From Acetobacteraceae bacterium (lineage in GTDB: Bacteria; Pseudomonadota; Alphaproteobacteria; Acetobacterales; Acetobacteraceae): a stretch of 18,608 nucleotides of DNA. The stretch's first letter is position 1; the number at the start of each line of letters is the position of its first letter. The position numbers and the translations under genes were made by a program. Below are positions 58 to 18,608 of this stretch, piece after piece. The stretch lies in the NCBI GenBank assembly GCA_947476855.1, contig CANJSR010000034.1, positions 1 to 18,608 of the forward strand, given 5' to 3'. Below the pieces are notes generated by a model, which was not told the DNA's origin, made no database searches, and saw only the letters and a list, made by a program, of their open reading frames with translations.

Positions 58-123
58 TGACGGGTCTTGCATCGCCGCCCCCGCCTTCCACGACGCCCCC
101 GCTGCCGCCCACCATGACGGGTC
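50..123. repeat. 17-bp direct repeat in the hpnB upstream region
   Basis: GCCCACCATGACGGGTC occurs at 50-66 and identically at 107-123, start to start 57 nt. The first copy begins in the right arm of the hairpin at 38-57. The DNA between is C-rich and contains a partial echo (CCACGAC, near 88-94) of the hairpin at 1-9. Both copies contain an ATG, but no ORF from either resembles a known protein. This looks like a local duplication or a pair of binding sites; which of the two cannot be told from one sequence. Confidence 0.6.
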
Positions 124-144
124 CGTCGCCGGAACGCCCGCCGC

Positions 145-1260
145 ATGACCGCCCTCGCGACCCTCGCCCTGATCATCTGGCTGTATCTGATCTTCCTCCA
201 CGGCCGCTTCTGGCAGGCCGGGCCTGTTCTGACGGCCCGCGTCCCCGCCTCCGCGCCTCCCGTCGCCATCGTCGTCCCCGCCCGGGATGAAGCCGAGGTC
301 ATCGCCCGCACCCTCCGCTCCCTGCTCGCGCAGGACTATCCCGGCCCCTTTCGCGTGATCCTCGTCGATGATGGCAGCACCGACGGCACCGGCGCCATCG
401 CCCGCGGCCTGGACGACCCGCGGCTGACCGTCCTGACCGGCGCGCCCCGCCCGGCCGGATGGAGCGGCAAGCTCTGGGCCGTGCAGCAGGGCCTGCTCGC
501 CACCGGCGACTCCGAACTGGTGCTGCTGACCGACGCCGACATCGTCCACGACCCGCGCCACCTCGGCACCCTGGTCGCCAAGGCCGAGGACGACGGTCTC
601 GACATGGTGTCCGAGATGGTCGAACTCGCCTGCGACAGCCCGGCCGAACGCGCCCTGGTGCCGGCATTCGTTTTCTTTTTTCAGTTGTTGTATCCCTTCG
701 ATTGGGTAAACGATTCGCAGAAGGCCACCGCGGCGGCCGCTGGCGGAACGGTTCTGATCCGGCGAAGGGCCTTGCGGCGAACGAATGGGGTGGAGGCTGT
801 GCGCGGCGCGCTGATCGACGACGTGGCTCTGGCGACCGCGGTCAAGCGCGGTGGCCGCATTTTCCTGGGCCATTCCGTGCTGGCCCGGTCGGTGCGCCCA
901 TACCCCGATTTCGCGGATATCTGGCGGATGGTCGCGCGCACCGCCTATGTGCAACTGCGCTTTTCGCCGCTGCTGCTGGCGGCCACCACCCTGGGCATGG
1001 CGCTGACCTGGCTGGTGCCCCCCGCCGCCGCGTTGTTCGCCGATGGTCCCGCGCGCTGGTGCGGCCTGATCACCTGGATGCTGCTGGCAGGGTCCTATCT
1101 GCCGACGCTCCGCCGTTTCGGACGCTCCGCCGCCTGGGCGCCGTTCCTGCCGCTGATCGCGGGTTTCTACATGGCAGCAACGATTGGTTCCGCTTGCAAC
1201 CATCATTTCGGCCGTGGTGTCGCGTGGAAGGGCCGAGCGTATGAGGGTGATGGGAGATGA
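145..1260 (+). CDS. hpnB: Hopanoid-associated glycosyltransferase HpnB
   Basis: A 371-residue family 2-type glycosyltransferase of the hopene-associated HpnB group. Residues 5-20 form an N-terminal membrane segment. The GT-A nucleotide-binding elements follow: VVPARDE (43-49), VDDGSTD (74-80) and a DxD-type TDADI (129-133). The YPFDWVNDSQ and AAAAGG segments after residue 180 are typical of HpnB. Hydrophobic segments after about residue 265 are C-terminal membrane helices. In hopanoid clusters hpnB sits with hpnC and hpnD; its exact acceptor is not established, a role in hopanoid side-chain sugar transfer being an inference from context. The ATG at 145 precedes the membrane segment and has only a weak GGAA upstream. 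The stop overlaps the hpnC start (ATGA). A short run of AT-rich codons at 668-722 is unlike the rest of the gene. Confidence 0.9.
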   Translation: MTALATLALIIWLYLIFLHGRFWQAGPVLTARVPASAPPVAIVVPARDEAEVIARTLRSLLAQDYPGPFRVILVDDGSTDGTGAIARGLDDPRLTVLTGAPRPAGWSGKLWAVQQGLLATGDSELVLLTDADIVHDPRHLGTLVAKAEDDGLDMVSEMVELACDSPAERALVPAFVFFFQLLYPFDWVNDSQKATAAAAGGTVLIRRRALRRTNGVEAVRGALIDDVALATAVKRGGRIFLGHSVLARSVRPYPDFADIWRMVARTAYVQLRFSPLLLAATTLGMALTWLVPPAAALFADGPARWCGLITWMLLAGSYLPTLRRFGRSAAWAPFLPLIAGFYMAATIGSACNHHFGRGVAWKGRAYEGDGR

Positions 1261-2105
1261 GTGGGCATACGGAGAATGTTGAGGTTTGGTCGGGGAAAGA
1301 TCGCGGCGACGAAAATTTCCCGGTCGGTTCGGCGCTGATCAGCCCGGCGCTGCGTCCGCATGTTCATGCCTATTATGCCTTCGCGCGCAACGCCGATGAC
1401 ATTGCCGATTCCAAGGATCTTTCTCCCGCCGACAAGATCGCCCGCCTCGACATCATGGAAGCCGTTCTTCTCGGCGCGCGCGACACCGGTTCGCCCAGCG
1501 CGACGCGGCTGCGGGAGAGTCTGGCGCGGACCAAGGTCACGCCCACGCATGCAACGGACCTGCTGATCGCGTTCCGCCAGGACGCGACCAAGACGCGATA
1601 CGAAACGTTCGACGAGTTGTACGGCTATTGTCGCTACTCGGCGGTGCCGGTCGGGCGCTTCCTGCTGGACCTGCATGGCGAGAGTCACGAGTGCTATTCA
1701 TCCTCCGACGCGCTGTGCATCGCGTTGCAGGTCCTCAATCACATGCAGGACTGCGCCAAGGACCTGGCGGAGCTGGATCGTTGCTATCTGCCGATGGCGC
1801 TGCTGAACCATTTCGGGGTTCGCATCGACGACCTGCGCGCGAACCGGGAAACGCCCGGGTTGCGGCGGGTGTTCGTCACGTTGCTTGATCGGATCGACCG
1901 GCTGACGCAGGCCGCGATCGAACTGCCGGAGATCGCGCATAACCGCCGGTTGCGCCTGGAATCAGCCGTGATCCTCGGCCTCGCCCGACGGTTGGCTCGG
2001 CGGCTCGCGCGGACCGATCCGCTGGCAAGACGGGTCGCGCTGTCGAAGCTGGATTTCGCGTCCAGTTCCGTGGCCGCGCTGCGGTATTTCTGGCAGGTGG
2101 CATGA
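1257..2105 (+). CDS. hpnC: Hydroxysqualene synthase HpnC
   Basis: A 282-residue all-alpha prenyl synthase of the squalene/phytoene synthase fold. In hopanoid producers HpnC converts presqualene diphosphate, the HpnD product, to hydroxysqualene, which HpnE then reduces to squalene. The first Asp-rich motif is DDIAD (47-51), preceded by YYAFARNA. The second metal-binding region is N161-HMQD-CAKD169, followed by RCYLP (175-179). Length is normal for the family. The gene starts with an ATG inside the hpnB stop (ATGA) and its own stop overlaps the hpnD start in the same way, so the three are translationally coupled. HpnC rather than HpnD is assigned from operon order and the NHMQDCAKDL form of the second motif. 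Confidence 0.9.
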   Translation: MSGHTENVEVWSGKDRGDENFPVGSALISPALRPHVHAYYAFARNADDIADSKDLSPADKIARLDIMEAVLLGARDTGSPSATRLRESLARTKVTPTHATDLLIAFRQDATKTRYETFDELYGYCRYSAVPVGRFLLDLHGESHECYSSSDALCIALQVLNHMQDCAKDLAELDRCYLPMALLNHFGVRIDDLRANRETPGLRRVFVTLLDRIDRLTQAAIELPEIAHNRRLRLESAVILGLARRLARRLARTDPLARRVALSKLDFASSSVAALRYFWQVA

Positions 2106-2953
2106 CACCGCTGGGCGCCGAACAGGCCGATCTCGACGCGGTGGAAGCCATCGTCCGCGCGGCCGGCACGTCGTTCTATCGTGGCATGCGGGTGCTGCCG
2201 CCGGACCGCCGGCACGCGATGTACGCCGTCTACGCCTTCTGCCGCATCGTCGACGACATCGCCGATGAGGAAGGGACGCTGCCCGAGAAACTGACCGGCC
2301 TCGCGCAATGGCACGCCTGGATCGACGACGTCTATGCGGGCAGGAACCATGACCCCGTCACGCGGGTGCTGACCCGCGCGGTGGCGGCCTTCGACCTCCG
2401 CCGCGATGATTTCATTGCGGTCATCGACGGCATGCGGATGGACGCGGAAACCGAGATCGTGGCCCCCGACCTCGCGACGTTGGAACTTTATTGCGATCGC
2501 GTCGCGGTGGCCGTGGGCCGGCTGTCGGTGCGCGCGTTCGGCGATGCGTCACCCACCGCCGATCGTGTCGCGCATGCGCTGGGGCGGGCGTTGCAGTTGA
2601 CCAACATCCTGCGCGATCTGCAGGAAGATGCCGATCGCAACAGGCTCTATCTGCCGCGTGAGTATCTGGAGGACGCTGGCGTGCCGCTCGACGCACGCGC
2701 CGCGATCACCCATCCGGGGCTCGGGAAAGTGTGCTCCCGACTCGCGGCCCGGGCGCATGACTACTTCCGGGAGGCCGACGCCGCCATGCGCGCCTGCGAT
2801 CCCGTCGCCATGAAGCCGGCGAGGCTGATGGGCGCGACCTATGCGGCGATCCTGTCGATGCTGGAACGGCGCGGGTGGGAGCGTCCGGGGGAGCGGGTCA
2901 GCCTGCCGCTGTGGCGGAAGCTGTGGCTCGGGGTGCGCTACGGTCTGTTCTGA
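2102..2953 (+). CDS. hpnD: Presqualene diphosphate synthase HpnD
   Basis: A 283-residue squalene/phytoene synthase-family enzyme. HpnD condenses two farnesyl diphosphates to presqualene diphosphate, the first committed step towards squalene and hopanoids. Seen directly: FYRGMRVLPPDRRHAMYAVY (25-44), the first Asp-rich motif DDIADEE (51-57), and the second motif LTNILRDLQEDADRNRLYLP (165-184), all in canonical form. It overlaps hpnC by ATGA. After its stop the usual next gene, the FAD-dependent hpnE, is absent: 114 nt of non-coding DNA lead to an unrelated small secreted protein. A short GGGTT/AACCC hairpin at 2959-2973 lies just after the stop and has no T-run. Confidence 0.93.
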   Translation: MTPLGAEQADLDAVEAIVRAAGTSFYRGMRVLPPDRRHAMYAVYAFCRIVDDIADEEGTLPEKLTGLAQWHAWIDDVYAGRNHDPVTRVLTRAVAAFDLRRDDFIAVIDGMRMDAETEIVAPDLATLELYCDRVAVAVGRLSVRAFGDASPTADRVAHALGRALQLTNILRDLQEDADRNRLYLPREYLEDAGVPLDARAAITHPGLGKVCSRLAARAHDYFREADAAMRACDPVAMKPARLMGATYAAILSMLERRGWERPGERVSLPLWRKLWLGVRYGLF

Positions 2954-3008
2954 GACATGGGTTTCGGTAACCCGCGAAAGCACTTGCTATCGCACGGAAA
3001 AGGTGACC

Positions 3009-3071
3009 ATGAGCGGGCAGGCGGCCATCTCGGCTCGCCGATTCGTATCCCCCGTGGAGCAAAGACCATGA
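3009..3071 (+). CDS. Possible 20-aa leader peptide
   Basis: A 20-codon ORF (MSGQAAISARRFVSPVEQRP) begins with ATG at 3009 after an AAGGTG Shine-Dalgarno-like sequence at 3000-3005. Its TGA at 3069-3071 overlaps the ATG of the next small gene in an ATGA junction. That arrangement would allow translational coupling to the secreted protein downstream. No homologue is recognised and the peptide has no distinctive attenuation signature such as repeated codons for one amino acid. It may be chance; the ribosome-site-plus-ATGA geometry is the only support. Confidence 0.3.
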   Translation: MSGQAAISARRFVSPVEQRP

Positions 3072-3271
3072 TCGCTTCCGCCAAACGCCTGATCCTCGCG
3101 CTGGTCTTCGTCCTGCCGGTGGCCGCCCTGGTCGCGCCGCCTGCCATGGCGAAGCAGCAGACCACGACCCAGACCGGCGCGCAGTCGCAGAAGACCAAGA
3201 CCACCAAGACGAACAAGACGGCCAAGACGAAGAAGACGGGCACGAAGAAGACCACCACCACGACGGGCTGA
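3068..3271 (+). CDS. Small secreted Lys/Thr-rich protein
   Basis: A 67-residue protein of no recognised family. Residues 1-28 form a clear Sec signal peptide: basic SAKR, a hydrophobic core LILALVFVLPVAALVA, and an A-M-A cleavage site at about 28/29. The mature 39 residues are almost entirely Lys, Thr, Gln and Gly, with imperfect repeats of the K-T-K-K/T type (KTKTTKTNKTAKTKKTG) and no cysteine. GGAG at 3056-3059 is well placed before the ATG at 3068, which is why this start is preferred over longer in-frame options. Strongly cationic, low-complexity mature peptides like this could bind polyanions or cell-surface polymers; that is speculation. It converges on hyfI with only 17 bp between the stops. 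Confidence 0.7.
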   Translation: MIASAKRLILALVFVLPVAALVAPPAMAKQQTTTQTGAQSQKTKTTKTNKTAKTKKTGTKKTTTTTG

Positions 3272-3288
3272 TTTCCAGCCGCCCTTGT

Positions 3289-3801
3289 CTATGGGGCGTT
3301 GGCTTCCAGCAGCGCGCGCAGGCCGGCCAGGATGCGGGCCGGGGATGGCGGGCAGCCGGCGATCGTCAGGTCGATCGGCACCGCGTTTCCGGTTCCGCCC
3401 AGGACGGCGTAGCTGCCCTTGAAGACGCCGCCGTCGACCGCGCAGTCGCCCAGCGCCACGACCCATTTCGGATCGGGCGTGGCGTCCCAGGCCTGCTCCA
3501 GCGCCAGGCGCATGTTGCGGGTCATCGGGCCGGTCACCACCAGGATATCGGCGTGGCGCGGGCTTTCGACAAAGCGCAGGCCGAATCGTTCCAGTTGATA
3601 CAGCGGGCCTGAAAGGGCGCGCATCTCCCGCTCGCACCCCCCGCAACTGCCGGCGTCGATGTGGCGCAGCGCCAGGCTGCGCCCCAGCCGCGTCTGGGCG
3701 GCCGCGTCCAGGCGCGCCATCAGCGCGTTCACCGTATCGCCATCGACCGGGACATCGGGGTCGGGCGTGACGCGGGCGGGCAGCCAGGCGGGGCGGCGCA
3801 T
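3289..3801 (-). CDS. hyfI: HyfI-like (NuoB-family) small Fe-S subunit
   Basis: A 170-residue homologue of the small subunit of group 4 hydrogenases (HycG/HyfI) and of complex I NuoB. In those complexes it holds the proximal/N2-type [4Fe-4S] cluster next to the large subunit. All four ligand cysteines appear: C53 and C56 in GSCGGCERE, C120 in ALGDCAVDGG, and C150 in IAGCPPSPARIL. The GxCAxxGG and GCPPSP contexts are family signatures. The ATG at 3801 overlaps the hyfG stop as TAATG, and it is the last gene of the operon. Retaining the complete cluster set while the partner large subunit has lost its NiFe site argues for a role in electron transfer. Confidence 0.85.
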   Translation of the reverse strand: MRRPAWLPARVTPDPDVPVDGDTVNALMARLDAAAQTRLGRSLALRHIDAGSCGGCEREMRALSGPLYQLERFGLRFVESPRHADILVVTGPMTRNMRLALEQAWDATPDPKWVVALGDCAVDGGVFKGSYAVLGGTGNAVPIDLTIAGCPPSPARILAGLRALLEANAP

Positions 3802-5303
3802 TACAGGTCCATTCCCGATACCGTCAGTCCCAGGCTGCAACGGATCAACGCGACATCCTCCACGGCGGCGCCGGCCAAGACGTGTTCCGCCAGCGGCCAA
3901 AGTGCCCAGGCGGGATCGCGGGGGAAGGCCGCGGCGATATGGCCGTGATCGAGCCGCAGCCAATGCCAGATGTCGCCATGGGGTCCCTCGGCGCAACCGA
4001 TTCCCTCGCCGCTGCCGGCGGGCAGGGTGACGGCGACGGGCCCATCCGGCAGGAAGCCGGACAGCCGGTCGATGATGCCGATGCTGGCCGCGATTTCCCG
4101 CAGGCGGACCAGGTTGCGCGCGGTCTCATCGCCCTGGCGCTGGATTTCGGCCTCCCACTCGATGCCGCCATGGGCTTCGTCCAGGGCGCGGGCGTCGAAG
4201 GCGCGCCCCGATCCGCGGCCGACCACGCCACCGGCGCCCAGGCGGTTGGCCAGGGCCAGCGGCACGTGGGCCAGCCCCGACAGGCGGCTCGCGAGCGGCG
4301 GATGCTCCAACGCGGCGGCGAGCGGCGGCAGGGTTTCGACGAAGGCGGTCAGGGCGGCGCGCAGCACGACCTGCCCGTCGGGGGCGATGTCGTGGGACAC
4401 GCCGCCCGGCACGACGACATCCATCAGCAGGCGGTGGCCGAAGGCGGCCTCGGCGGCGCGGGCCAGGTGCTCGCGCGCGCCCTCGGCGATGCGGTGCAGG
4501 CCGGCGGCCCCGGTCAGGACGCCCAGGTCGGCGAAGTGGCCCAGATGGACGGACATCCGTTCCCATTCCGCCAGAAGCAGGCGCAGGGCCTGGGCGCGAG
4601 GCGGGGCCTCGGTTTCCAGCGCCGCCTCGGAGGCACGGGCGAAGGCGAGGGAATGCGCGACGGTGGCGTCTCCGGACAGGCGGGCGATGAAGCGGGCGGC
4701 GGCCCGGGGGGATTTGCCGCGCATCAGGGCCAGCGTGCCCTTGTGGGTGTAGCCGAGATGCGCCTCGGCCGAGCGGATCGCGGTGCCGGAGAGGGTCAGG
4801 CGCAGATGGGCCGCGTCGGTGATCAGGCCGGCGACGGGACCGATCGGCAGGCGGGTGGCGTGGTCGCCCTCGGCCGTGGGGAAGCTGGGCGGTTCGGGCT
4901 CGATGGGCGCGGAACCTGGGCGGGGGGAGAGCGGCAGGGTGACCGGCCATTGCCCGTGGTCGAGCCAGGGGCGCTCATCCCCGGCGTCGGCCGCGTGGTG
5001 GCCCCAGAGGTCGCGGATCATCCGCTCGAACGGTTCGGCAGCGGGGCGGACGGCCGAGAGCGCGGGATAGGCGCCGACCTCGACGGCGGTGGAGACGGCG
5101 ACGACGCCCAGGCCGGGATCGTGGAGCAGGAGGGCGTGGACCTCGATCGTGTCGGCCCAGAGGGCGAGCAGGCGGTGGGGTTCGTGGCGCAGGGCGTCGA
5201 TCAGGGCGCGCCAGGCGGTGTGCGGGAGGCGGTGGCGGGGCCAGGGGCGGCAGGGTTCGGCCTGCGAGGCGGCGAGGATGGTGGCGATGGTGGGCGGGGT
5301 CAT
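3801..5303 (-). CDS. hyfG: HyfG/HycE-like large subunit without NiFe ligands
   Basis: A 500-residue fusion of a NuoC-like domain (about 10-120, containing PFERMIRDLWG) and a NuoD/hydrogenase large-subunit domain (about 155-500), the same architecture as HycE/HyfG. The GYTHKG segment (184-189) matches the GYxHRG signature and EWERMSVHLGHFADLG (246-261) matches the conserved core. In active group 4 hydrogenases RxCGxC...AHS and a C-terminal DPCxxC bind nickel and iron. Here these read RLSGDATVAHS (208-218) and CSLGLTVSGMDL (489-500), so all four ligand cysteines are gone. It cannot house a NiFe centre. The start is the ATG at 5303, overlapping the hyfF stop (ATGA); a longer in-frame extension to 5468 would run back into hyfF and encodes Pro/His/Arg-rich shadow sequence. 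Best described as an Ehr-type subunit. Confidence 0.85.
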   Translation of the reverse strand: MTPPTIATILAASQAEPCRPWPRHRLPHTAWRALIDALRHEPHRLLALWADTIEVHALLLHDPGLGVVAVSTAVEVGAYPALSAVRPAAEPFERMIRDLWGHHAADAGDERPWLDHGQWPVTLPLSPRPGSAPIEPEPPSFPTAEGDHATRLPIGPVAGLITDAAHLRLTLSGTAIRSAEAHLGYTHKGTLALMRGKSPRAAARFIARLSGDATVAHSLAFARASEAALETEAPPRAQALRLLLAEWERMSVHLGHFADLGVLTGAAGLHRIAEGAREHLARAAEAAFGHRLLMDVVVPGGVSHDIAPDGQVVLRAALTAFVETLPPLAAALEHPPLASRLSGLAHVPLALANRLGAGGVVGRGSGRAFDARALDEAHGGIEWEAEIQRQGDETARNLVRLREIAASIGIIDRLSGFLPDGPVAVTLPAGSGEGIGCAEGPHGDIWHWLRLDHGHIAAAFPRDPAWALWPLAEHVLAGAAVEDVALIRCSLGLTVSGMDL

Positions 5304-6571
5304 GGGGCGGGACCCGCGGTCATGGCCGCGGGAGGCAGGGCCGAACGGAGCCAGAGGGTGAGGGGGGCGGGGGTGAGGAGGCCGATGAGGAGGACGGCTC
5401 CGATCGGCAGCCAGCCGAGGGCGGGTTGGACGATGCGGCGGCGGATGGTCGCGCCGCGGATGAGCCACCAGGCGGGGAGGGCGATCCCGGGCAGGCAGAC
5501 CAGCAGCAGAAGCGGTTCATGCCGAGCGATCTCCGGCAGGGCGAGCGCCAGGCCGGCGAAGGTGCCGAGGGGTGGCAGGCCGGCGAGTGCCAGCAGGGCC
5601 ACCGGGCGGGCGGGGTCGGAGAGGCGGGCGGCCGCGTCGCTCAATGTCAGGAGGGTCAGGAGGATGAGGGCGGCGAAGCTGCCACCCGCCGAACCCAGGC
5701 CGATCGCGGCGGCGGCGAGCGCCATCTGGCCGAGGACGGCGCCTCGTTCGGCGGTCAGGAGGCGGAGGGGGACGGCGATCGCGGCAAGGGCCAGGCCGAC
5801 CAGGGCGGTGGCGAGGAGGGGCGGGCTGCCGGTCTCGGCCCCGAGGCGGAGGAGGAGGGGCAGCGCGACGGGCAGGAGGGCGGGGACGAGGGCGAGCAGG
5901 GTGGCCAGTCCGACGATCTGGCAGCCCAGGCCGAACGGGGGGTCGAGTGGGGCGGTGATGGTGCCGAAGAGGAGGAGGATGAGGCCGGTCGCGGGTATGG
6001 CCGCCTGGAAGGTGGCGTGTGGGCGTGCACGGGGGCCGCCGTCGACGCCCCCCCTCCCCTTGAGGGAGGGGGATGGGGGGAGGGGTATCGCGGCACCGGC
6101 CGGGGGGGGATCACCCCTCCCCCCAACCTCGGTCCGCTTCGCGGCCCAAGCCCTCAAGGGGAGGGGGGGAATGGTGGTGGCAACGCCCTCTCCACCCCGC
6201 AGCACCGACGCGCCGACAACCACGACCACCGCGGCCCAGACCGCGACCCCGTGGGTCCCGCCGGCCACCATGCAGACCAGCAGCAACCCACCCAGCACCA
6301 CCTGATCAAGCGCCCGCGCCGCGGAGCCTGGCCCGTCCTCAGCCACCGTCCCGCCCCAGCGGGTCAGCGCGGCTGTCACCCAGACCAGTCCCGCGCTCAG
6401 CAGGCCCAGCTGGTCCAGGCCGCCGCTCCAGGCCGCGAGGCCGATCGCGGCCGGCAGGGCCAGCGTCACCACCCAGCGGTCGATCCGTTCGGCCAGGGCC
6501 TCGGACCGCAGCGCCGCCAACGCGAGCGCCGTCAGGAACGGGACCGAGACCAGCAGCAGGGCGGCGGTCAC
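5300..6571 (-). CDS. hyfF: HyfF-like antiporter-type membrane subunit with inserted repeat
   Basis: A 423-residue polytopic membrane protein of the NuoL/M/N-HyfF antiporter-like family, short for that family (typically about 480-530). LALAGLPPLGTFAGLALAL near the C-terminus matches the AGLPPFGxF signature, and LLLFGTI (199-205) matches another conserved helix. GTG at 6571 is chosen because it overlaps the hyfE stop as GTGA and gives a protein starting directly with a membrane helix. Residues 135-175 are encoded by a 122-bp palindromic repeat inserted in frame in a loop between helices. The only lysines, K145 and K171, fall inside this insert. The conserved helix glutamate, the helix lysines and the TKAG-type motif are not found. 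It overlaps hyfG by ATGA. Confidence 0.75.
   Translation of the reverse strand: MTAALLLVSVPFLTALALAALRSEALAERIDRWVVTLALPAAIGLAAWSGGLDQLGLLSAGLVWVTAALTRWGGTVAEDGPGSAARALDQVVLGGLLLVCMVAGGTHGVAVWAAVVVVVGASVLRGGEGVATTIPPLPLRAWAAKRTEVGGRGDPPPAGAAIPLPPSPSLKGRGGVDGGPRARPHATFQAAIPATGLILLLFGTITAPLDPPFGLGCQIVGLATLLALVPALLPVALPLLLRLGAETGSPPLLATALVGLALAAIAVPLRLLTAERGAVLGQMALAAAAIGLGSAGGSFAALILLTLLTLSDAAARLSDPARPVALLALAGLPPLGTFAGLALALPEIARHEPLLLLVCLPGIALPAWWLIRGATIRRRIVQPALGWLPIGAVLLIGLLTPAPLTLWLRSALPPAAMTAGPAP
6048..6169. repeat. Nested palindromic repeat inserted in frame in hyfF
   Basis: The outer arms are a perfect 19-bp inverted repeat: CCCCCCCTCCCCTTGAGGG at 6048-6066 and its exact reverse complement at 6151-6169. 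Inside is a second perfect 13-bp inverted pair, TGGGGGGAGGGGT at 6074-6086 and its complement at 6113-6125. The element is 122 bp and carries no transposase. Translated in the hyfF frame it gives a Pro/Gly/Arg-rich segment (residues 135-175) with PPLPL and SLKGRGG at its ends, unlike the Ala/Leu/Val-rich helices on either side. Palindromic repeats encoding such PLPL/LKGRG peptides are often scattered in alphaproteobacterial genomes; that is from general knowledge, and the copy number here is unknown. No target-site duplication is evident. Confidence 0.85.
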
Positions 6572-7170
6572 GACGTCCTCCACCCGGGCTGGCGTCCGGC
6601 AAGGACCACCAGCCCGGCCGCCACCGGCAGGCAGGCGGCCAGCGTGGTCGCGACGCCGTGTTCGGCCATGCCCCGGGCCGGCAGAGCGGTCCCCGCGACT
6701 CCCATGGCCGAGAGACCCGCCTCGGCGAGGCCCGTCCCCATCGCATCCATCCCGGCCAGGGCCGGCAGAACCAGGGCGGTTCCCACCTGCATCGTCGTCA
6801 GCGCCAGCGCCGAACCGGCCGGCCGAGCGAGGAGCGCCAGCAGGCCGACCAGGAGGATCGCCAGTGGCAGCCCCAGCGGCCCGACCGCGAGGCCAAGCGG
6901 GGTGACCACGATCGCGATCACCCAGGTCGGCCAGGGAGCGGCGGGCAGGGGGGCGCCTGGGGCGCGCCAGACCAGGAAGGGCAGCAGCAGCCCCGCCGCC
7001 AGCGCCGTCAGGCTCGCGCCGAGGATCAGCCCTTCGGCCAGCAGGGCGAGCGCCGCCAGCAACCCGCGCGACACCGCGAGTGCGAGCAGCCCGGCCGGCT
7101 GGCGCACCAGCAGGTCGGCCAGCGCCAGTGCCAGCACCAGCCCGGTCAGGCCCTGGGCCAGGACGCTCAT
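6568..7170 (-). CDS. hyfE: HyfE-like membrane subunit
   Basis: A 200-residue, strongly hydrophobic protein with roughly six membrane helices, in the position and size range of HyfE (about 216 residues in E. coli), a NuoK-related membrane subunit of hydrogenase-4. Its sequence is highly Ala/Leu/Val/Gly-rich and diverged. The usual RKAxSQ...ENG region appears replaced by RPAGSALALTTMQVGTAL, losing the conserved glutamate. There is no lysine anywhere in the protein. The ATG at 7170 overlaps the hyfC stop (ATGA), and the stop overlaps the hyfF GTG start. Assignment relies on operon position as much as on sequence. Confidence 0.7.
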   Translation of the reverse strand: MSVLAQGLTGLVLALALADLLVRQPAGLLALAVSRGLLAALALLAEGLILGASLTALAAGLLLPFLVWRAPGAPLPAAPWPTWVIAIVVTPLGLAVGPLGLPLAILLVGLLALLARPAGSALALTTMQVGTALVLPALAGMDAMGTGLAEAGLSAMGVAGTALPARGMAEHGVATTLAACLPVAAGLVVLAGRQPGWRTS

Positions 7171-8078
7171 GCGGCACCCGTGTGGGTCAGCGCCACGATC
7201 GCGGCCAGCACGGCCAGCCCTCCGGCCAGCAGCAGCGCGGGGGCCAGCCAGCGTTCGGGCGGCGGGCCGATCACGGCGGCGGCGCCGGCCAGCAGCGCGG
7301 TCAGCACGCCCAGCCGTCCGATCCAGGACAGCACCGCCAGCGGCCAGTCCGCCAGCGCCGAGTCCGGACCGACCAGCCCCAGCGGCGCGGCCAGCAGCAG
7401 GACCAGGTTGCACCAGACCAGCAGACGCAGCGCCTCGGTCACGCGGGCCATGGCCAGGTCGGGACCGGACAGTGCCTCGTCCAGCCGGGGCCCGGCCAGG
7501 TCCGCCACCGCGATCGCCGCGATCGCCGCCGCCGCGAGGCCTCGGGCCGCGCCCGGCACGAAGGCGTCATCGAACCGCGCCGCCCCGATCTGATCCAGCG
7601 TCAGCCCGCCGGCCCCGAGCGCCAGGGCCAGGATCGCCGGCGGAAAGGCGGCGGCGGCGAGGGTGCCGCGGCTGACATGGCGGGCGGCGGCGATGCCTCC
7701 CGCCGCCGATCCGGCATCGAGGCAGGCGAGCAAGGGCAGCAGGCGCGCCAGGGTCAGCAGCCCCGCGACCGTCAGGAAGTCCCCCAGCCCGCTCAGGGCC
7801 ATGCCCACCGAGAAGCTCGGCGTCACCAGCGCGACCACCAGGGTCAGGCCAGCGGCGATGGCGGGGGCGGCGCGCAGCAGGGGCGTGGACGGCTCGGTCG
7901 GCAGCGGGGTCTTGCGCCAGAGGCGGCGGAGCAGCGCGTGCTCGCGCCGGATCAGGGCGGCGGGGGTTTCGGCGAAGCCGGCCCCGGCCCAGCGCAGCAC
8001 GCCCGCCAGGATCGGCGTTGCCGCCACCAGCAGGGCGGCGTGCAGGATCTGGGCGAGCAGGGCGAGCAGCAGGGTCAT
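7167..8078 (-). CDS. hyfC: HyfC/HycD-like (NuoH-family) membrane subunit
   Basis: A 303-residue membrane protein of the HycD/HyfC/NuoH family, which anchors the Fe-S arm and forms the E-channel in group 4 hydrogenases and complex I. Recognisable elements: the first helix LLLALLAQILHAALLVAATPILAGVL, a charged loop RREHALLRRLWRKTP, then STPLLRAAPAIAAG matching the family xxLFRAAPYL segment, and LARLLPLLACLDAGSAAGGIAAAR matching LDTGSSFGGMGASRE. In that last motif the conserved Glu is replaced (AARH), and the PVDNPATHLELTMxHEAM region is replaced by a diverged stretch around RLDEALSGPDLAMARVTEAL. It starts at the ATG overlapping the hyfB stop (ATGA). Only one lysine is present. Confidence 0.8.
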   Translation of the reverse strand: MTLLLALLAQILHAALLVAATPILAGVLRWAGAGFAETPAALIRREHALLRRLWRKTPLPTEPSTPLLRAAPAIAAGLTLVVALVTPSFSVGMALSGLGDFLTVAGLLTLARLLPLLACLDAGSAAGGIAAARHVSRGTLAAAAFPPAILALALGAGGLTLDQIGAARFDDAFVPGAARGLAAAAIAAIAVADLAGPRLDEALSGPDLAMARVTEALRLLVWCNLVLLLAAPLGLVGPDSALADWPLAVLSWIGRLGVLTALLAGAAAVIGPPPERWLAPALLLAGGLAVLAAIVALTHTGAA

Positions 8079-9928
8079 CGGGCCAGCGCCGCCACCAGCA
8101 AGGGCACCAGCGCGGCCAGGACCAGCCAGGGGGTGAAGCAGCCCAGGCGGATCGCGGGCAGCCGGACCCGTGGCATGGGGGCCCGGGGCACCCGCACGAT
8201 CACCTCCGGCACGAACCCCGCGCCATCGGTCTGGGTCAGTGGGTCCCCATAGGGCAGCCAGGCCGGCGGCGGCGCGAACCCACCCGACCAGGCCGGCGTC
8301 GCGCGCTCATCCACCACCGGCCGGCGGACCAGGCGCCATGCCACGAAGATGGCGATCGCGACCACGGTGAACAGCAGGATCGGGGCATAGGCGTCCCGCC
8401 CGGCGGTCAGCGCCAGCAGGCTCGGGTCGGCGCGTTCGGCGCCCTCGTTCAGGGCGCGGATGGCAAGGCGGGCGAGCAAAGCGGGCACCAAAGCTGGGAG
8501 CAGGCCGACGATCAGGGCGAGGCCGGACAGCGCCAGCAGGATAAGGCGGGCCTGGGGCGGCACGTCCTCGGCCGCCGAGGACCGGGGCAGGCGGGGCCGG
8601 CCCAGGAAAGCCACGCCCAGCATGCGGATCGCGGCGGCGAGGGCCAGTGCGGCGGAGAGGGCCAGGACGGCGGCCAGCGGGGCCAGCACCCAGGCCGAGG
8701 CGAGGCCGGTGCGGGGGGCGGCCAGGATCGCCTGCGCCAGGTCCCACATCGCGGCGAAGCCGATCCCTGGCGGCAGCATCAGCAGGGCCAGCAGCCCGAC
8801 CAGCATGGCGGCGCCGGTGATGGGCATGCGGTGCAGCAGCCCGCCGAGCCGGTCCAGGCGCGCCGTCCCGGCCGCGGATGCGGCGGCGGAGGCGGCGAGG
8901 AAGACCAGCGTGCCGCCCAGCGCCTGTCCCGCCAGCAGCAGGCAGACCGCGCCCAGGGCAAGCTCGGCCATCCCCGGCAGGTCGGCGGACCGGGCGATCA
9001 GAGCAAGGCCGATCCCGATCGCCAGCAACCCGCCTTGGCGCTGGCTCAGGCCGATCAGGATGGCTGGCAGGTCGGTGCCGGCGGTGGCCCTCCAGGCGCC
9101 GGCCAGGGCGGCGAGGCTGCCGAGGGCCAGCAGGGGAACGCCCCACCAGAAGGACGCCTCGGCCGGCAGCGGGGCGAGGGTCAGGCGCAGCAGCAGCACC
9201 CCGGCGACCGGCAGCAGGCAGCCGGCGAGGATGGCGCGCCCGGTCGGGTCGGCGGTTGCCAGCAGGGCAGAGCCGCCGAAGGGAGGGAGGGCGAGGAGGG
9301 CGCCGGGGCCGGCGAAAGCGAGCAGCATGACCAGGGCCGTCCGGGCGGCGTCCGTGCCGATCGGCCCGAAACCGGGCGTGGCGGGCGCCAGCACCAGCAT
9401 GGCGGCGGCGGCGGCCAGGCCGGCGGCCGGGGGCAGGGCGCAGCCGACGCTCCGCCGAACGGTGCCTGTTCCGGCGAGCCAGAGGGAAAGGCCGGCGGTG
9501 GAGAGGGCCAGCACCAGCACCACCGGATCGGCGGCGAGCAGCGCCAGCACGCAGGCGCCCAGGATGGCGATGGGGGCGGAAAGGGCGGGTGGCGGGGCGC
9601 CTCGGGAGGGTGGCGGCTGTTCAGCGGCGAAGGCGATCACGGCGGCGCCGGCCAGGAAGACCAGCACCAGGGCGAAGGCGGCGAGCGGATCGAGCGCGAG
9701 ACCCAGGCTGGCGCCGGGCGGGCCGATCGGCAGGTCCAGCCGGACCGGCGCGTTGCCCATGACCAGGGCGATCAGCGCCAGCAGGGCGCCCCAGCCGGAC
9801 AGGCAGGCGGCGCCGAGACCGATCCCGTGGCGGATACGCGCGCCGCCCCACGCTTCCGCCGCGGCGAGGGCCAGCAGCAGACACGCGATACCGGCAAGAA
9901 GGGGCAGGATCGGGTCCGTCACCCGCAT
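8075..9928 (-). CDS. hyfB: HyfB/HycC-like antiporter-type membrane subunit
   Basis: A 617-residue polytopic membrane protein of the NuoL/HyfB antiporter-like family (E. coli HyfB about 672). Family landmarks remain: LDRLGGLLHRMPITGAAMLV matching MEKMGGLGKRMP..., LLMLPPGIGFAAMWDLAQA matching ALPPFNGFVSEW, and a C-terminal WSGGFAPP...YGDPLTQTDGAGFVPEVI tail typical of HyfB. The positions normally holding channel residues are altered: DLK reads DLP, HALFKGLLF reads QALGGTLVF, and GTKAGLIPLH reads GALLALPPFG. The protein has no lysine. The ATG at 9928 begins a normal hydrophobic N-terminus; the open frame continues upstream through antisense hemE but encodes no family sequence there. It is the first gene of the operon. 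Confidence 0.8.
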   Translation of the reverse strand: MRVTDPILPLLAGIACLLLALAAAEAWGGARIRHGIGLGAACLSGWGALLALIALVMGNAPVRLDLPIGPPGASLGLALDPLAAFALVLVFLAGAAVIAFAAEQPPPSRGAPPPALSAPIAILGACVLALLAADPVVLVLALSTAGLSLWLAGTGTVRRSVGCALPPAAGLAAAAAMLVLAPATPGFGPIGTDAARTALVMLLAFAGPGALLALPPFGGSALLATADPTGRAILAGCLLPVAGVLLLRLTLAPLPAEASFWWGVPLLALGSLAALAGAWRATAGTDLPAILIGLSQRQGGLLAIGIGLALIARSADLPGMAELALGAVCLLLAGQALGGTLVFLAASAAASAAGTARLDRLGGLLHRMPITGAAMLVGLLALLMLPPGIGFAAMWDLAQAILAAPRTGLASAWVLAPLAAVLALSAALALAAAIRMLGVAFLGRPRLPRSSAAEDVPPQARLILLALSGLALIVGLLPALVPALLARLAIRALNEGAERADPSLLALTAGRDAYAPILLFTVVAIAIFVAWRLVRRPVVDERATPAWSGGFAPPPAWLPYGDPLTQTDGAGFVPEVIVRVPRAPMPRVRLPAIRLGCFTPWLVLAALVPLLVAALAR

Positions 9929-9949
9929 GCGATAGCAGATACGGCTCGG

Positions 9950-9961
9950 ATTCGCGCGAAT
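9950..9961. promoter_or_regulatory. 12-bp palindrome between hyfB and hemE
   Basis: ATTCGCGCGAAT is a perfect 12-bp palindrome, 22 nt from the hyfB start and about 105 nt from the hemE start. It is more AT-flanked than its surroundings and sits in the only non-coding stretch between the divergent genes (9929-10066), so it is placed to act as an operator for the hyf-like operon. No convincing -35/-10 pair was found on either strand; TTGACC at 10007-10012 is a possible -35 towards hemE without a good -10. Confidence 0.3.
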
Positions 9962-10066
9962 GGCGGTCGGCCAGGGCGGAGGGGCCGTTTCCCTGATCCG
10001 AAACACTTGACCCGTCCGGGCGTCCGTGACACCCGAGGCTCCTGATTTCAGCCCCAGGAAAGCCTC

Positions 10067-11122
10067 GTGATCCAGGTAGCCTCCCCATCGAAGCCGTTCC
10101 TGCGCGCCCTGTCGGGGGAAGCCGTCTGGCCGCCGCCGCTGTGGCTGATGCGCCAGGCCGGGCGCTATCTGCCGGAGTATCGCGCCCTGCGGGCGACGGT
10201 GCCGGATTTCATCGCGCTGTGTACCTCCCCCGACAAGGCGGCCGAGGTCACGTTGCAGCCGATCCGCCGCTTCGGGTTCGATGCCGCCATCCTGTTCTCC
10301 GACATCCTGATCCTGCCCTGGGCGCTGGGCCACGGCCTGGCCTTCAAGGAAGGGGAGGGGCCGGTCCTGCCGAAGCTGCACGACGCCGCCGGGGTCGATG
10401 CGCTCGACCCGTCCAAGGTCGCCGCCCGGGTGGCGCCGGTGATGGAAACCGTCCGTCGCGTCCGCGCCGGCCTGGGGCAGGAGGGCTTTGACCGCACCGC
10501 CCTGATCGGCTTCGCCGGCGCGCCCTTCACGGTGGCCTGCTACATGGTGGAGGGCGGCGGCTCCCGCGATTTCGCCAATACCCGCGCGCTGGCCTTCGCC
10601 GATCCGGCCCTGTTCGGCCGGCTGATGGATGTGCTGACCGAATCGACGATCGAGTATCTCGCCGCCCAGGCCGAGGCGGGGGCCGAGGCGCTGATGCTGT
10701 TCGACAGTTGGGCCGGGGTGCTGCCGCCCTCGCAGTTCCGCCGCCATGTGATCGCGCCGGCGACCCGGATCGTGGCGGCGCTGCGGGCACGGTTTCCGTC
10801 GGTGCCGGTGATCGGCTTTCCCCGGCTGGCCGGCCCGATGCTCGCCGAATATGGCGCGACCGGGGTCAACGCGATCGGCATCGACACCGGGATGGATCCA
10901 GTCCGGGCCGCCGCCATGGTGCCGGTGGGCGTGGCGCTGCAGGGCAACCTCGACCCGATGGCGCTGGTCGCCGGCGGCGCGGCGGTGGAAACCGAAACAC
11001 GGTCGATCCTGGCCGCCATGAAGGGCAGGCCCTTCGTGTTCAACCTCGGCCACGGCATCGTTCCGCAGACCCCGCCCGAGCATGTCGGGGCGCTCGTGAA
11101 GCTCGTGCGGTCGGCGAACTGA
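10067..11122 (+). CDS. hemE: Uroporphyrinogen decarboxylase
   Basis: A 351-residue cytoplasmic enzyme that decarboxylates the four acetate side chains of uroporphyrinogen III to give coproporphyrinogen III in heme and related tetrapyrrole synthesis. Both family signatures are intact: [17 protein letters not shown] (23-39) and [19 protein letters not shown] (148-166). The catalytic aspartate is D79 in LFSDIL, the conserved tyrosine Y159, and the C-terminal histidine H329 in NLGHGI. Start is GTG at 10067, with AGGAA at 10056-10060; it gives the normal N-terminus. It stands alone between the divergent hyf-like operon and a terminator before purC, so it is probably a single-gene unit. Confidence 0.96.
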
Positions 11123-11147
11123 CCGACACACCGACCGACGCGAGGCC

Positions 11148-11183
11148 GGGCGCCTGTCCGCATTCGGACGGCGCGCCCTTTTT
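11148..11183 (+). terminator. Rho-independent terminator after hemE
   Basis: GGGCGCC...GTCCG pairs with CGGAC...GGCGCGCCC around a CATT loop (11161-11164), giving a GC-rich stem with small internal mismatches, followed directly by five T (11179-11183). It lies 25 nt after the hemE stop and upstream of purC, separating the two transcripts. Confidence 0.7.
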
Positions 11184-11201
11184 CCCGGCCCCCCGCGCTG
11201 C

Positions 11202-11207
11202 TATATC
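11202..11207 (+). promoter_or_regulatory. Possible -10 element for the pur operon
   Basis: TATATC is the only AT-rich hexamer between the hemE terminator and purC, 45 nt before the purC ATG. The region 17 nt upstream (T-run of the terminator) has no TTGACA-like -35. No recognisable riboswitch or operator was seen in 11184-11252. Weakly supported. Confidence 0.25.
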
Positions 11208-11252
11208 CCCCCCGCCGCCCGTTGCGGCCTGACCGCCAAGGGGACCGCTTCA

Positions 11253-12017
11253 ATGGCTCGCCGCCGCCAACTCTATGAGGGCAAGGCCAAAATCCTGTTC
11301 GAAGGGCCGGAACCGGGAACGCTTGTCCAATATTTCAAGGACGACGCGACCTCGGGCAACGGCAAGAAGAAGGGCGTGATCACCGGCAAGGGGGTCCTGA
11401 ACAACCGCATCAGCGAGTATCTGATGATGCGTCTCGGCGAAATCGGCGTGCCCACTCATTTCGTCCGCCGGCTCAATATGCGGGAGCAGCTGATCCGGGA
11501 GGTGGAGATCATTCCGCTCGAACTCGTGGTCCGCAACATCTCGGCCGGCAGTTTCTCCGAACGCCTGGGCATCGCCGAGGGCACCCGCCTGCCGCGCTCG
11601 ATCATGGAATATTACTACAAGAACGACGCGCTGAACGACCCGATGGTGTCCGAGGAGCACATCACCTGCTTCGGCTGGGCCAATACCGCCGACCTCGACG
11701 ACATGGTCGCGCTGGCGCTGCGGATCAACGATTTCCTGACCGGATTGTTCCTGGGCGTCGGCATCTCGCTGGTGGACTTCAAGCTGGAATTCGGCCGGCT
11801 GTGGGAAAACGATGAGATGCGGATCATCCTGGCCGATGAGATCAGCCCGGACAATTGCCGCCTGTGGGACAGCAAGACGCACGAGAAGATGGACAAGGAC
11901 CGCTTCCGCCGCGACCTTGGCCGTGTCGAGGAAGCCTACCAGGAAGTCGCCAAGCGCCTGGGCATCCTGCCCGAGGCCGGCATGCGCGACCTCAAGGGGC
12001 CGGAGATCATGCAGTGA
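11253..12017 (+). CDS. purC: SAICAR synthase
   Basis: A 254-residue phosphoribosylaminoimidazole-succinocarboxamide synthase, joining aspartate to CAIR with ATP in the purine pathway. Visible motifs: the N-terminal [12 protein letters not shown] nucleotide-binding strand, [16 protein letters not shown] (86-101) and [20 protein letters not shown] near residue 170, both PROSITE-type signatures of the family, then [13 protein letters not shown]. Length is normal. AAGGGGA at 11238-11244 precedes the ATG. It heads the purC-purS-purQ-purL cluster, and purS follows after 40 nt. Confidence 0.97.
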
Positions 12018-12057
12018 ACCGGTGCCCGCTCACCTTCCGTTTTTCAAGGACTCCGAC

Positions 12058-12300
12058 GTGAAAGCCATTGTCACGGTCATGCTGAAGCCCGGGGTCCTCG
12101 ACCCGCAGGGCAAGGCCATCGCCCACGCCCTCGGCACGCTGGGCTTCGCCGGTGTCAACGACGTGCGCGCCGGCAAGGTCATCGAACTCGAACTGACCGA
12201 GACCGATCCCGCCCGCGCCCGCGCGCAGGCCGAGGACATGGCCCGCAAGCTGCTGGCCAACACGGTCATCGAAAGCTTCCGGGTCCAGGTGGATGGGTAG
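12058..12300 (+). CDS. purS: FGAM synthase subunit PurS
   Basis: An 80-residue PurS, the small bridging subunit that with PurQ and PurL forms the three-part phosphoribosylformylglycinamidine synthase found in bacteria lacking the large single-chain enzyme. The sequence KAIVTVMLKPGVLDPQG opens with the family strand, followed by GxxxVNDVRxGKxIELEL. The start is GTG at 12058 with AAGGA at 12046-12050, which gives the standard family length; a longer in-frame reading into purC is shadow sequence. The stop lies 9 nt before the purQ ATG. Confidence 0.93.
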   Translation: MKAIVTVMLKPGVLDPQGKAIAHALGTLGFAGVNDVRAGKVIELELTETDPARARAQAEDMARKLLANTVIESFRVQVDG

Positions 12301-12309
12301 GAACCCCCG

Positions 12310-12993
12310 ATGAAGGCAGGCATCATCCTGTTTCCCGGCATCAACCGGGAACGCGACATGGCGATCGCGCTGGAGAATTCGGGCGGCGTGAAGCCCCGCA
12401 TGATCTGGCACAAGGAAACCGACCTTGGCGACCTCGACCTGGTGGTCATCCCCGGCGGGTTCTCCTTCGGCGACTATCTGCGCTGCGGCGCCATGGCCGC
12501 GCAGTCGCCGATCATGGCGGCCGTCCGCGCCCATGCCGCCCGCGGCGCCTATATCCTGGGCGTCTGCAACGGCTTCCAGATCCTGACCGAGGCCGGTCTC
12601 CTGCCGGGCGCCCTGCTCCGCAACGCCTCGCTGCGGTTCCTGTCGATGGACTGCCACCTGCGGGTGGAACGGGCGAACACCGTGTTCACCACCCGCTACC
12701 AGCAGGGCCAGACCTTCCGCGCCGTCATGGCGCATGGCGACGGCAATTATTTCGCCGACGACGCCACGCTCGACCGGCTTGAAGGCGAGGGCCGCGTCGC
12801 CTTCCGCTACGCCACCGCAACAGGCGAGATCTCGCCGGAGGTCAACCTGAATGGCAGCGCCCGCTCGATCGCCGGCATCTACTCCGACAACCTGCGCGTG
12901 CTGGGCATGATGCCGCACCCGGAGGACCTGGTGGACCCGCTGATGGGCGGCATCGACGGCAAGCCCTTGTTCGACGCGCTCGCGGCCGCATGA
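12310..12993 (+). CDS. purQ: FGAM synthase glutaminase subunit PurQ
   Basis: A 227-residue class I glutamine amidotransferase that releases ammonia from glutamine for FGAR amidation by PurL. The catalytic triad is visible: nucleophile C86 in GVCNGFQIL, and H203 and E205 in [16 protein letters not shown] (8-16) and [14 protein letters not shown] (48-61) are PurQ-specific segments. AGGA overlaps the purS stop. The ATGA overlap with purL indicates coupled translation of the two subunits. Confidence 0.97.
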
Positions 12994-15200
12994 TGGAAAA
13001 GCCCATGGGACGTGACGTCAACCAGCAACTCGCCCGTGAATTCGGCCTGACGGCGGACGAATACGCCAAGGTGCTCGAGATCATGGGCCGTACCCCCACG
13101 CTGACCGAACTCGGCATCTTCAGCGTGATGTGGTCGGAGCATTGCTCCTACAAATCCTCCCGCGTCTGGCTGCGGCAACTGCCGACCAAGGCGCCCTGGG
13201 TCATCCATGGACCCGGGGAGAACGCCGGCGTCGTCGATATCGGCGATGGGCTGGCGGCCATATTCAAGATGGAAAGCCACAACCACCCGAGCTTCATCGA
13301 ACCCTACCAGGGTGCCGCGACCGGCGTGGGCGGCATCCTGCGCGACGTCTTCACCATGGGCGCGCGCCCGATCGCCAACCTGAACGCGCTGCGCTTCGGC
13401 TCCCCCGACCATCCCCGCACGCGGCGGATCGTCGATGGCGTCGTGCGCGGCATCGGCGGCTATGGCAACTGCGTCGGCGTGCCGACCGTCGGCGGCGAGG
13501 TGAACTTCCACCCCGCCTACAACGGCAACCCGCTGGTCAACGCCATGACCGTCGGCATCGCCCGCCAGGACCGCATCTTCCTCTCGGCCGCGGCCGGCGT
13601 GGGCAACCCCGTCGTCTATGTCGGCTCGAAGACCGGGCGTGACGGCATCCACGGCGCGACCATGGCCTCCGCCGAGTTCGGCGCCGATTCCGAGGAAAAG
13701 CGCCCCACCGTCCAGGTCGGCGACCCCTTCACGGAAAAGCTGCTGATCGAGGCCTGCCTCGAACTGATGGAAACCGACGCGATCGTCGCCATCCAGGACA
13801 TGGGCGCGGCCGGCCTGACATCATCGTCCGTCGAGATGGCGGGCAAGGGCGGGGTCGGCATCGTGCTCGACCTCGACCAGGTGCCGGCGCGCGAAACCGG
13901 CATGACCGCCTATGAGTTCATGCTGTCCGAGAGCCAGGAGCGCATGCTCATGGTCCTCCGCCCCGAGCGGGAGGCCATGGCGCGCGCGATCTTCGAGAAA
14001 TGGGACCTCGATTTCGCCGTCATCGGCTACCTGACCGATACCGGCCGGATCACCATCCGCCACCAAGGCCGCGTGGAAGCCGATATTCCGCTCGCACCCT
14101 TGGCCGATGAGGCACCGCTCTACACCCGCCCCACCGTCGAATCCCCCAAGGGTGAGAAGATCAACCCCGCCCGGATCGAGGATCGCGTCGGCCTGACCGC
14201 CGCGCTGCGGACCCTGGTGGCCTGCCCGGACCTCTGCTCCCGCGCCTGGATCTGGGACCAGTACGACTCGACGGTTGGCGGCCAGACCACCAAGCGGCCC
14301 GGTGCGGCCGATGCCGCCATCGTCAAGCTCGATGGTCTGAAGCGCGGCATCGCCATGACCACGGACTGCACGCCCCGCTACTGCGCGGCCGACGCGGAGG
14401 AAGGCGGCAAGCAGGCCGTCGCCGAAGCCTGGCGCAACCTGACCGCCGTGGGCGCCCGCCCGCTGGCGATCACCGACAACATGAACTTCGGCAACCCGGA
14501 AAAGCCCGAGATCATGGGTCAGTTCGCAGCCGCGATCCGCGGCATGGCGGCGGCGTGTGAGGCGCTGGACTTCCCCGTCGTGTCGGGCAACGTCAGCCTG
14601 TACAACGAAACCGAGGGCAAGGGCATCCTGCCGACCCCGGCGATCGGTGGCCTCGGTGTGCTGGATGACGTGTCCAAGGCGGTGGGCCTGGCCCTTCCCC
14701 CCTGGCTCGACATCGTTCTCATCGGCGTCACCACCGGTTGGCTCGGCCAGTCGCTGTGGCTGCGGGAGATCGGCGGGCGAGAGGACGGCGCGCCGCCGCC
14801 CGTGAACCTCCAGGCCGAACGCGCCAATGGCGACTTTGTGCGGGCGCAGATCCTGGCCGGCCATGTCCGCGCCTGCCACGACGTCTCCGATGGCGGCATC
14901 CTGGTGGCGCTGGCGGAAATGGCGATGGCGAGCGGCGTCGGCGCCCGGGTGTCGACCCATCCGCGCGACATCCCCGGCCATGCGTTCTGGTTCGGAGAGG
15001 ACCAGGGCCGCTATCTGGTCGCCTGCCCCGATTCTCCCGCGCTGATCCGGGCCGCCGACGCCGCCGGGATTCCGGCGCTGCGAATAGCCGTGTCCGGCGG
15101 TCAGGATTTGACACTTCCGGATGGCGGTACAATATCGATCGCGGCGCTGCGTGAAGCCCATGCGCGCTTCTTCCCGGCCTGGATGGCAGGCCCGGGTTGA
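12990..15200 (+). CDS. purL: FGAM synthase large subunit PurL (small type)
   Basis: A 736-residue ATP-dependent synthetase that converts FGAR to FGAM using ammonia from PurQ. The length marks the small PurL used with PurS and PurQ. Motifs: [13 protein letters not shown] (45-57), [23 protein letters not shown] from about residue 94, the [13 protein letters not shown] segment, and a C-terminal CHDVSDGGI in the second ATP-binding half. The ATG at 12990 overlaps the purQ stop; ATGs at 12993 and 13005 are alternatives that change only a few residues. Confidence 0.97.
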
Positions 15201-15234
15201 CCCTGATCGTTTAACCCTACCGGAGACCGACCGC

Positions 15235-15468: not shown

Positions 15469-15489
15469 TTTTTCCTGAGGAATCCCACC

Positions 15490-16198: not shown

Positions 16199-18608
<2,410 letters not shown>

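Follow-up and report, generated by a model that had tools for sequence, protein, structure and literature searches.

Ehr complexes, whose founding papers are said to be Coppi 2005 and Marreiros 2013, combine a large subunit like that of group 4 hydrogenases without its nickel ligands, a small subunit with one iron-sulfur (Fe-S) cluster, and membrane subunits of the HyfB, HyfC, HyfE and HyfF types. Conserved glutamates and lysines of the membrane channel are, in our reading, what makes these complexes energy-converting, and the coupling of electron transfer to proton pumping in complex I has long been debated. The published passages available to us describe Ehr as lacking the NiFe ligands, with a function that is unknown or merely suspected (among PMC6349859, PMC10284858, PMC7894505, PMC10432482 and PMC12361115), and in the same partial view of the open-licence literature we found no description of an Ehr complex without a pump. 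Here we describe a six-gene operon, hyfB-hyfC-hyfE-hyfF-hyfG-hyfI, in an 18,608-nucleotide stretch of DNA from an Acetobacteraceae bacterium (contig CANJSR010000034.1 of assembly GCA_947476855.1, positions 1 to 18,608; hereafter the window). At a probability of roughly 0.48, we read this operon as coding for a derivative of an Ehr complex that is without a pump and does redox work only.

The genes run on the minus strand from 9928 to 3289 and every neighbouring pair overlaps; the operon and its coordinates had been given correctly in a first-pass annotation made from the DNA letters. That annotation had also reported that the large subunit lacks all four NiFe-ligand cysteines, and this extends well beyond the window. 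When aligned with E. coli HycE, the nickel-ligand columns contain no cysteine in 18/18 sequences of the window type or in 19/19 sequences of a second, intact Ehr type (L039-L057), which shows the known Ehr form. In the window, residues 208 onward of HyfG read RLSGDATVAHS, and the protein ends, from residue 489, in CSLGLTVSGMDL, without a C-terminal maturation extension. It has three cysteines in all, C18, C437 and C489, with no CxxC pair elsewhere, so that the contrary evidence named by the first-pass annotation, CxxC pairs at other positions, does not arise; a hydrogenase with displaced ligands was rejected on the ground that these three are scattered. HyfI has exactly four cysteines, at the positions noted before (C53, C56, C120 and C150), and their spacing is of the hydrogenase type. 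All four are kept in 18/18 window-type loci and 9/9 adjacent second-type ones in our residue table, for which all 18 window-type places and 19 of the 21 second-type matches were fetched (18 from the same genus, and L040 from another family), with the near-copy L021 left out. They are also kept in 71 of 72 named loci, the remaining one ending in a gap, and in 32/35 small subunits of a set of more degenerate relatives. Across 57 degenerate large subunits (L021 included), R208 is conserved in 100%, H187 in 98% and H217 in 96%. The HycE counterpart of R208 in the alignment is R239, next to the motif whose ligands are lost; by analogy with complex I structures, R208 would lie close to the cluster.

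Among solved complexes, the E. coli formate hydrogenlyase (FHL) and Mbh are closest in sequence, followed by complex I. FHL (HycC/D/E/G) and hydrogenase-4 are the nearest solved kin of HyfG and HyfB in both sequence and fold, a likeness for which the profiles and models took in both Ehr types. The first-pass annotation had suggested a structure prediction of HyfG with HyfI, and the AlphaFold model of HyfG (predicted local distance difference test score, pLDDT, of 90) is HycE-like, with a TM-score of 0.92 to HycE of FHL (7z0s_E); HyfB is predicted to have the antiporter-type fold of HycC. Unlike FHL and hydrogenase-4, the window type has no NiFe ligands, ferredoxin-like motif nearby or C-terminal extension, and there is no formate dehydrogenase gene within the window. 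With complex I the operon shares folds of the NuoB/C/D/H/L types. However, the window-type small subunit has CGGC where NuoB has a tandem CC, the operon consists of B-C-E-F-G-I only, with no NADH module or Nuo gene set, and 33 of 40 relatives encode a separate NuoD above the family cut-off, in agreement with the earlier statement that this is not complex I. Among the window-type carriers, 13/18 have such a NuoD; it is partial in G003 and G006, and in G010, G017 and G023 the matches lie at Ehr places only.

The membrane arm is where the operon departs from known Ehr complexes. In the residue table (HyfB counts made without L032, L034, L046 and L049; HyfC, HyfE and HyfF counts without L032 and L034), the TM5 Glu and the TM7, TM8 and TM12 Lys of HyfB (TM, transmembrane helix) are retained in 0/16 window-type loci as against 17/17 of the second type. 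The same is true of the TM5 Glu and the TM7 and TM12 Lys of HyfF (0/16 versus 19/19), of the Glu in the HyfE MENG motif (0/16, with 15 Gln and 1 Ala, versus 19/19) and of an Asp in the HyfC loop (0/16 versus 19/19), the TM5-6 loop being lost in the window type. In the window itself, HyfB has S for the TM5 Glu, L for the TM7 Lys, P for the TM8 Lys, Q for the TM11 His and G for the TM12 Lys, HyfE has Gln in place of the MENG Glu, HyfC is without the conserved acidic TM5-6 loop and retains the TM4 Asp, and HyfF is shortened in its TM7-8 region, with channel Glu, Lys and His missing or replaced. HyfE and HyfF form a single open frame in 8/16 window-type loci, and the median content of Lys, Asp and Glu in the E+F pair is 3.0 per 100 residues, compared with 6.4 in the second type. 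Taken together, these alignments make it very probable that the NiFe ligands and the canonical ion path have been lost and the cluster ligands kept. The first-pass label of an Ehr-type complex is right as to the defining features and wrong if taken to mean an ordinary Ehr: it overlooked the replaced channel residues of HyfB, HyfE and HyfF, the shortening of HyfF and the lack of family matches for HyfE and the scanned part of HyfF.

All six genes are under selection. Between the window and its nearest genome, G001 (35% of sampled words in common; large subunit 98% identical), the ratio of nonsynonymous to synonymous substitution rates (dN/dS) is 0.094 for hyfG, 0.052 for hyfI, 0.134 for hyfC, 0.107 for hyfE, 0.212 for hyfB and 0.20-0.28 for hyfF outside a repeat. 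Neutrality is rejected for each gene (p from 7e-4 to 8e-15), which shows, at the level of the coding sequence, that purifying selection maintains all six. The neighbouring genes give 0 (hpnC), 0.02 (hpnD), 0.02 (hemE), 0.03 (purC), 0.10 (purQ) and 0.11 (hpnB). Over longer distances, median pairwise identities (computed, like the residue contents above, without L021) are 71.5% for I, 53.1% for G, 41.4% for B, 42.0% for C and 31.8% for E+F in the window type, where HyfI is the most conserved subunit, and 79.3%, 68.5%, 64.8%, 73.7% and 79.8%, respectively, in the second type. Relative to G, E+F therefore evolves faster in the window type and slower in the second type. The pattern is consistent with a redox module still at work and anchored by subunits that would no longer need to conduct ions.

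Based on these data, we propose a cytoplasmic module made of HyfG and HyfI, in which a single [4Fe-4S] cluster lies next to a [NiFe]/quinone pocket that has been emptied. The role of HyfB, which is predicted to keep its antiporter-type fold, and of HyfC, HyfE and HyfF would mainly be to provide a hydrophobic anchor, since the HyfC coupling loop is missing and so are the Glu and Lys of the canonical channel. The cluster would be redox-active and fed by a soluble electron donor encoded elsewhere, and electrons may leave at the emptied pocket, to an acceptor that is either a small molecule or soluble in lipid, without energy conservation. The earlier suggestion, in which a redox complex in the membrane connects an Fe-S cluster with an unknown partner, remains plausible. 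According to the part of PMC9474812 available to us, H2 production by E. coli FHL did not differ significantly in several mutants of the HycC channel, which indicates that redox work can continue without those residues. By analogy, P. furiosus MBS offers a precedent for chemistry at a proximal cluster: the accessible part of PMC7684303 describes this relative, in which two of the four NiFe cysteines are lost, as working at its proximal [4Fe-4S] cluster. MBS differs in having two proton-pump subunits and a three-cysteine cluster, whereas the window type has four cysteines and no canonical pump residues.

Loss of the pump can be followed across the family. Many of the Acetobacteraceae relatives have intact pumps, Roseomonas, Belnapia and Siccirubricoccus among them, with large subunits that end in PLCNKSFNCSYSGVDL or something close to it. 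Scanning named genomes yielded 80 loci, and the comparison of this C-terminal motif with the pump covers 111 loci, which are related and not independent. We scored HyfB as intact if it has the TM5 Glu and the TM7, TM8 and TM12 Lys, HyfF as intact if it has the TM5 Glu and the TM7 and TM12 Lys, and either as lost if any of these is replaced. Where the column of HycE Asp529 holds Asn, HyfB is intact in 65/67 scored loci and HyfF in 79/84 (missing data at 21 and 4 loci, respectively); where it holds Gly or Ala, HyfB and HyfF are both lost in 21/21 scored loci (missing data at 2 for each). The failing Asn rows are L079 and L121 for HyfB and L066, L076, L106, L121 and L126 (a gap) for HyfF, and L095 and L129 keep their pump residues in part. 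A family search found matches in 117 of 150 genomes, from which we hand-picked 40 loci, mostly lower-scoring matches, for a second comparison. Here 10/10 Asn-type loci are intact and 29 of the 30 others lack pump residues, where in the most divergent relatives, whose B and F alignments are poor, "lost" means no Glu or Lys in the aligned column, the HyfF readings leave out L197, L213, L218, L224 and L225, and the HyfB genes scored for L224 and L225 lie at distant places (L244 and L243). The remaining non-Asn locus, L198, keeps all pump residues except the TM8 Lys of HyfB. A perfect coupling of motif and pump was rejected in view of L198 and the exceptions among the Asn rows; in these alignments, loss of the large-subunit C-terminal motif mostly accompanies pump loss.

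Trees were built from loci of Acetobacteraceae and other Proteobacteria. In the first of them, with 64 rows, pump loss has one origin (98/98) in a group that includes Rhodovarius L129. In a tree of 76 rows, L129 with L229 (also Rhodovarius), and L224 with L225, are placed among the intact relatives. The starred branches of a 33-row tree force at least three changes, and a single clade is rejected modestly (approximately unbiased test, p 0.037), the rows having been chosen for this test and the group named after the trees were inspected, with long branches in play. We thus rejected, modestly, a single origin of pump loss. That the change is a loss we infer from the state in E. coli, as the trees do not separate gain from loss. 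It is possible, if doubtful, that the Acetobacteraceae have repeatedly made a naturally uncoupled Ehr, losing motif and ion path together at least three times, and that this form is kept in acetic acid bacteria, some of them without complex I, for new, non-conserving redox chemistry at the single cluster next to the emptied pocket. The family is a natural test of coupling, with pump residues replaced in several membrane subunits, a redox arm under selection and intact sisters in the same genomes. A comparison of the window and second types can reveal residues of the redox arm that are tied to pumping, the large-subunit C-terminal motif being the first candidate.

Still more degenerate copies occur in small genomes of acetic acid bacteria and their relatives, putatively including Entomobacter blattae, Saccharibacter, Bombella and Aristophania. 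Homologues of the large subunit are recorded for Gluconobacter oxydans, Komagataeibacter and Acidomonas (known here from the large subunit, not from membrane genes), those of Gluconobacter and Komagataeibacter being annotated as hypothetical or NuoD-related, and these homologues would open the question to experiment. The small subunit was at first suspected to be missing in the degenerate relatives; this was rejected, since it is present in 14/14 genomes tested, in some of them far from the operon. By a crude filter, four hydrophobic frames lie upstream of G in 16/30 degenerate loci. For instance, at L203 the family search shows the order pepA-holC-operon with pssA and psd convergent, similar to L195, L191 and L201, and the four membrane proteins of L203 have no Pfam match. 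At L224 and L225, by the filter, no membrane genes adjoin the large and small subunits, and a degenerate HyfB-like gene lies far off in the same genomes.

Several observations weigh against a redox-only complex. No electron donor was recognised nearby (a C..C..C...CP motif is absent from the six frames of 38 loci), no quinone-site residue has been demonstrated, and the dN/dS ratios come from one close pair. Given the four-cysteine spacing of HyfI, no free iron site is evident, unlike in MBS. Some relatives, with frames open, have lost cluster ligands as well: three of four in the small subunits of L219 and L220 (GCGS in both), one in that of L197 (CCCS) and, read by eye, one to Ser in that of L240. 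Part of the charge is also left in the window-type membrane arm, and certain replacements are charged and conserved in turn: the HyfB VEN Glu has become Arg in 15/16 loci and the DIKR Lys Asp in 13/16, the HyfB TM7 His is kept in 5/16 and a loop His in 4/16, the HyfF TM12 Lys is Arg in 8/16, and HyfC keeps its TM4 Asp in 16/16, its TM5 Glu in 13/16 and an acidic TM6 residue in 10/16. The ligand losses, together with the fast evolution of the membrane arm, suit the main rival, which is that the operon encodes a structural pseudo-complex, a scaffold stabilising another membrane or respiratory complex, to which pumping and redox would both be irrelevant. In the same family, deranged bc1 and COX1-like proteins that have lost their ligands have been proposed to be retained for structural reasons (PMC10715153, in part). 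These are likewise respiratory proteins kept after loss of cofactor ligands; they belong to a different complex, and the main text of that paper, as far as available to us, mentions neither Ehr nor formate hydrogenlyase. We consider a scaffold rather unlikely, since the cluster cysteines are kept throughout the window type, in 71 of the 72 named loci and in most small subunits of the degenerate set, R208, H187 and H217 are nearly invariant, and HyfI is the best conserved window-type subunit. Moreover, 7/20 genomes with degenerate copies have no NuoD above the family cut-off, making complex I an unlikely client there. The cysteine record favours redox work over a scaffold, and its exceptions keep the scaffold alive.

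The charged replacements in HyfB and HyfF and the remaining acidic residues of HyfC would instead suit an energy-converting Ehr that still moves ions through non-canonical residues, as would the intact predicted fold of HyfB; HycC of FHL is itself without one canonical Lys, and a different path has been proposed for it (PMC9474812, in part). This is improbable in our judgement, with the canonical residues of HyfB, HyfE and HyfF all replaced at once, the HyfC loop absent and the content of Lys, Asp and Glu in E+F at about half that of the second type. Equally, the graded losses along the tree, the palindromic element inside hyfF, and dN/dS for hyfB and hyfF above that of the tested neighbours (0 to 0.11) are what a relic decaying under weak selection, on its way out, would show. 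Such a relic is very improbable given that none of the six frames is interrupted in the window, that each gene has a dN/dS well under 1, that large-subunit frames are stop-free in the 117 of 150 family genomes, some of them of about 2 Mb, and that by the crude filter four hydrophobic frames precede G in 16 of the 30 degenerate loci. Finally, the match of the HyfG fold to HycE is what a working [NiFe] hydrogenase, or a large subunit with an alternative metal site, would have led one to expect. That possibility is next to nil, as no ligand cysteine is present, there is no C-terminal extension to cleave, and HypD, which assembly of a NiFe site requires, is missing from 15/18 window-type carriers and from 34/40 relatives overall (carrier completeness varies, and HypD was the one Hyp protein searched); on this point too the first-pass annotation was right.

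The assignment of the subunits (Table 1) draws on several lines of evidence. HyfG matches PF00346 (3.9e-24) and PF00374 (1.3e-9), HyfI matches PF01058 (5.3e-31) and HyfB matches PF00361 (1.4e-7, above the cut-off), so the likeness of these subunits is not due to chance. HyfC matches PF00146 below the gathering score (2.9e-5), and neither HyfE nor the scanned part of HyfF has a Pfam or NCBIfam match in the window. HyfB is assigned as an antiporter-like subunit by sequence and fold, and HyfF by position and alignment only.

Table 1. Features of the operon in the window, with the evidence for each assignment.
Feature	Position	Strand	Evidence
hyfB-like antiporter-like subunit, 617 aa	8075..9928	minus	PF00361, alignment, predicted fold
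hyfC-like membrane anchor, NuoH/HycD homologue, 303 aa	7167..8078	minus	PF00146 below gathering score, alignment, residue table
hyfE-like membrane subunit, 200 aa	6568..7170	minus	position, alignment, residue table
hyfF-like membrane subunit, 423 aa from GTG 6571, including palindromic-element product	5300..6571	minus	alignment, residue table
hyfG-like large subunit, NuoC-like and NuoD/HycE-like, 500 aa	3801..5303	minus	profiles, alignment, fold
hyfI-like small subunit, 170 aa, C53-x2-C56, C120, C150, one [4Fe-4S] cluster	3289..3801	minus	PF01058, alignment
Palindromic repeat in frame within hyfF	6048..6169	none	19-nt perfect arms 6048-6066 / 6151-6169

Named window-type loci come from metagenome-assembled genomes of Acetobacteraceae and Rhodospirillales, Rhodopila among them. 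Half of the genus members (12/24) carry both the window type and the second type. We considered the window type as an accessory of the second and rejected this, as 6/24 have the window type alone (G013, G016, G017, G021, G022 and G023; completeness 77-100%). By family search, the flanks of the operon are chromosomal, with hpnB, hpnC and hpnD on one side and hemE, purC, purQ and purL on the other. The three hpn genes (window 145-2953) are convergent with the operon and are the same neighbours at 13/19 window-type loci; they were rejected as operon partners, marking a conserved place and not an operon. No recurrent partner enzyme was recognised beside window-type or degenerate loci, where not every shared neighbour was named. 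Between hpnD and hyfI lies a 104-residue Lys/Thr-rich open reading frame (2957-3271) with no NCBIfam match, which among the compared loci is matched in L021 alone.

The palindromic repeat in hyfF is nested. Its 35-nt core, searched with up to 3 mismatches, has no match in G013, G022 or G002, 21 matches in G001 and 25 in G024, and the hyfF copy of G001 has an assembly gap at the position of the repeat. Eight second-type operons (L043, L045, L046, L047, L049, L050, L052 and L053) lack a hyfI gene downstream of hyfG. In the six of their genomes that were searched, a matching small subunit lies elsewhere; that of G011 contains one internal stop codon.

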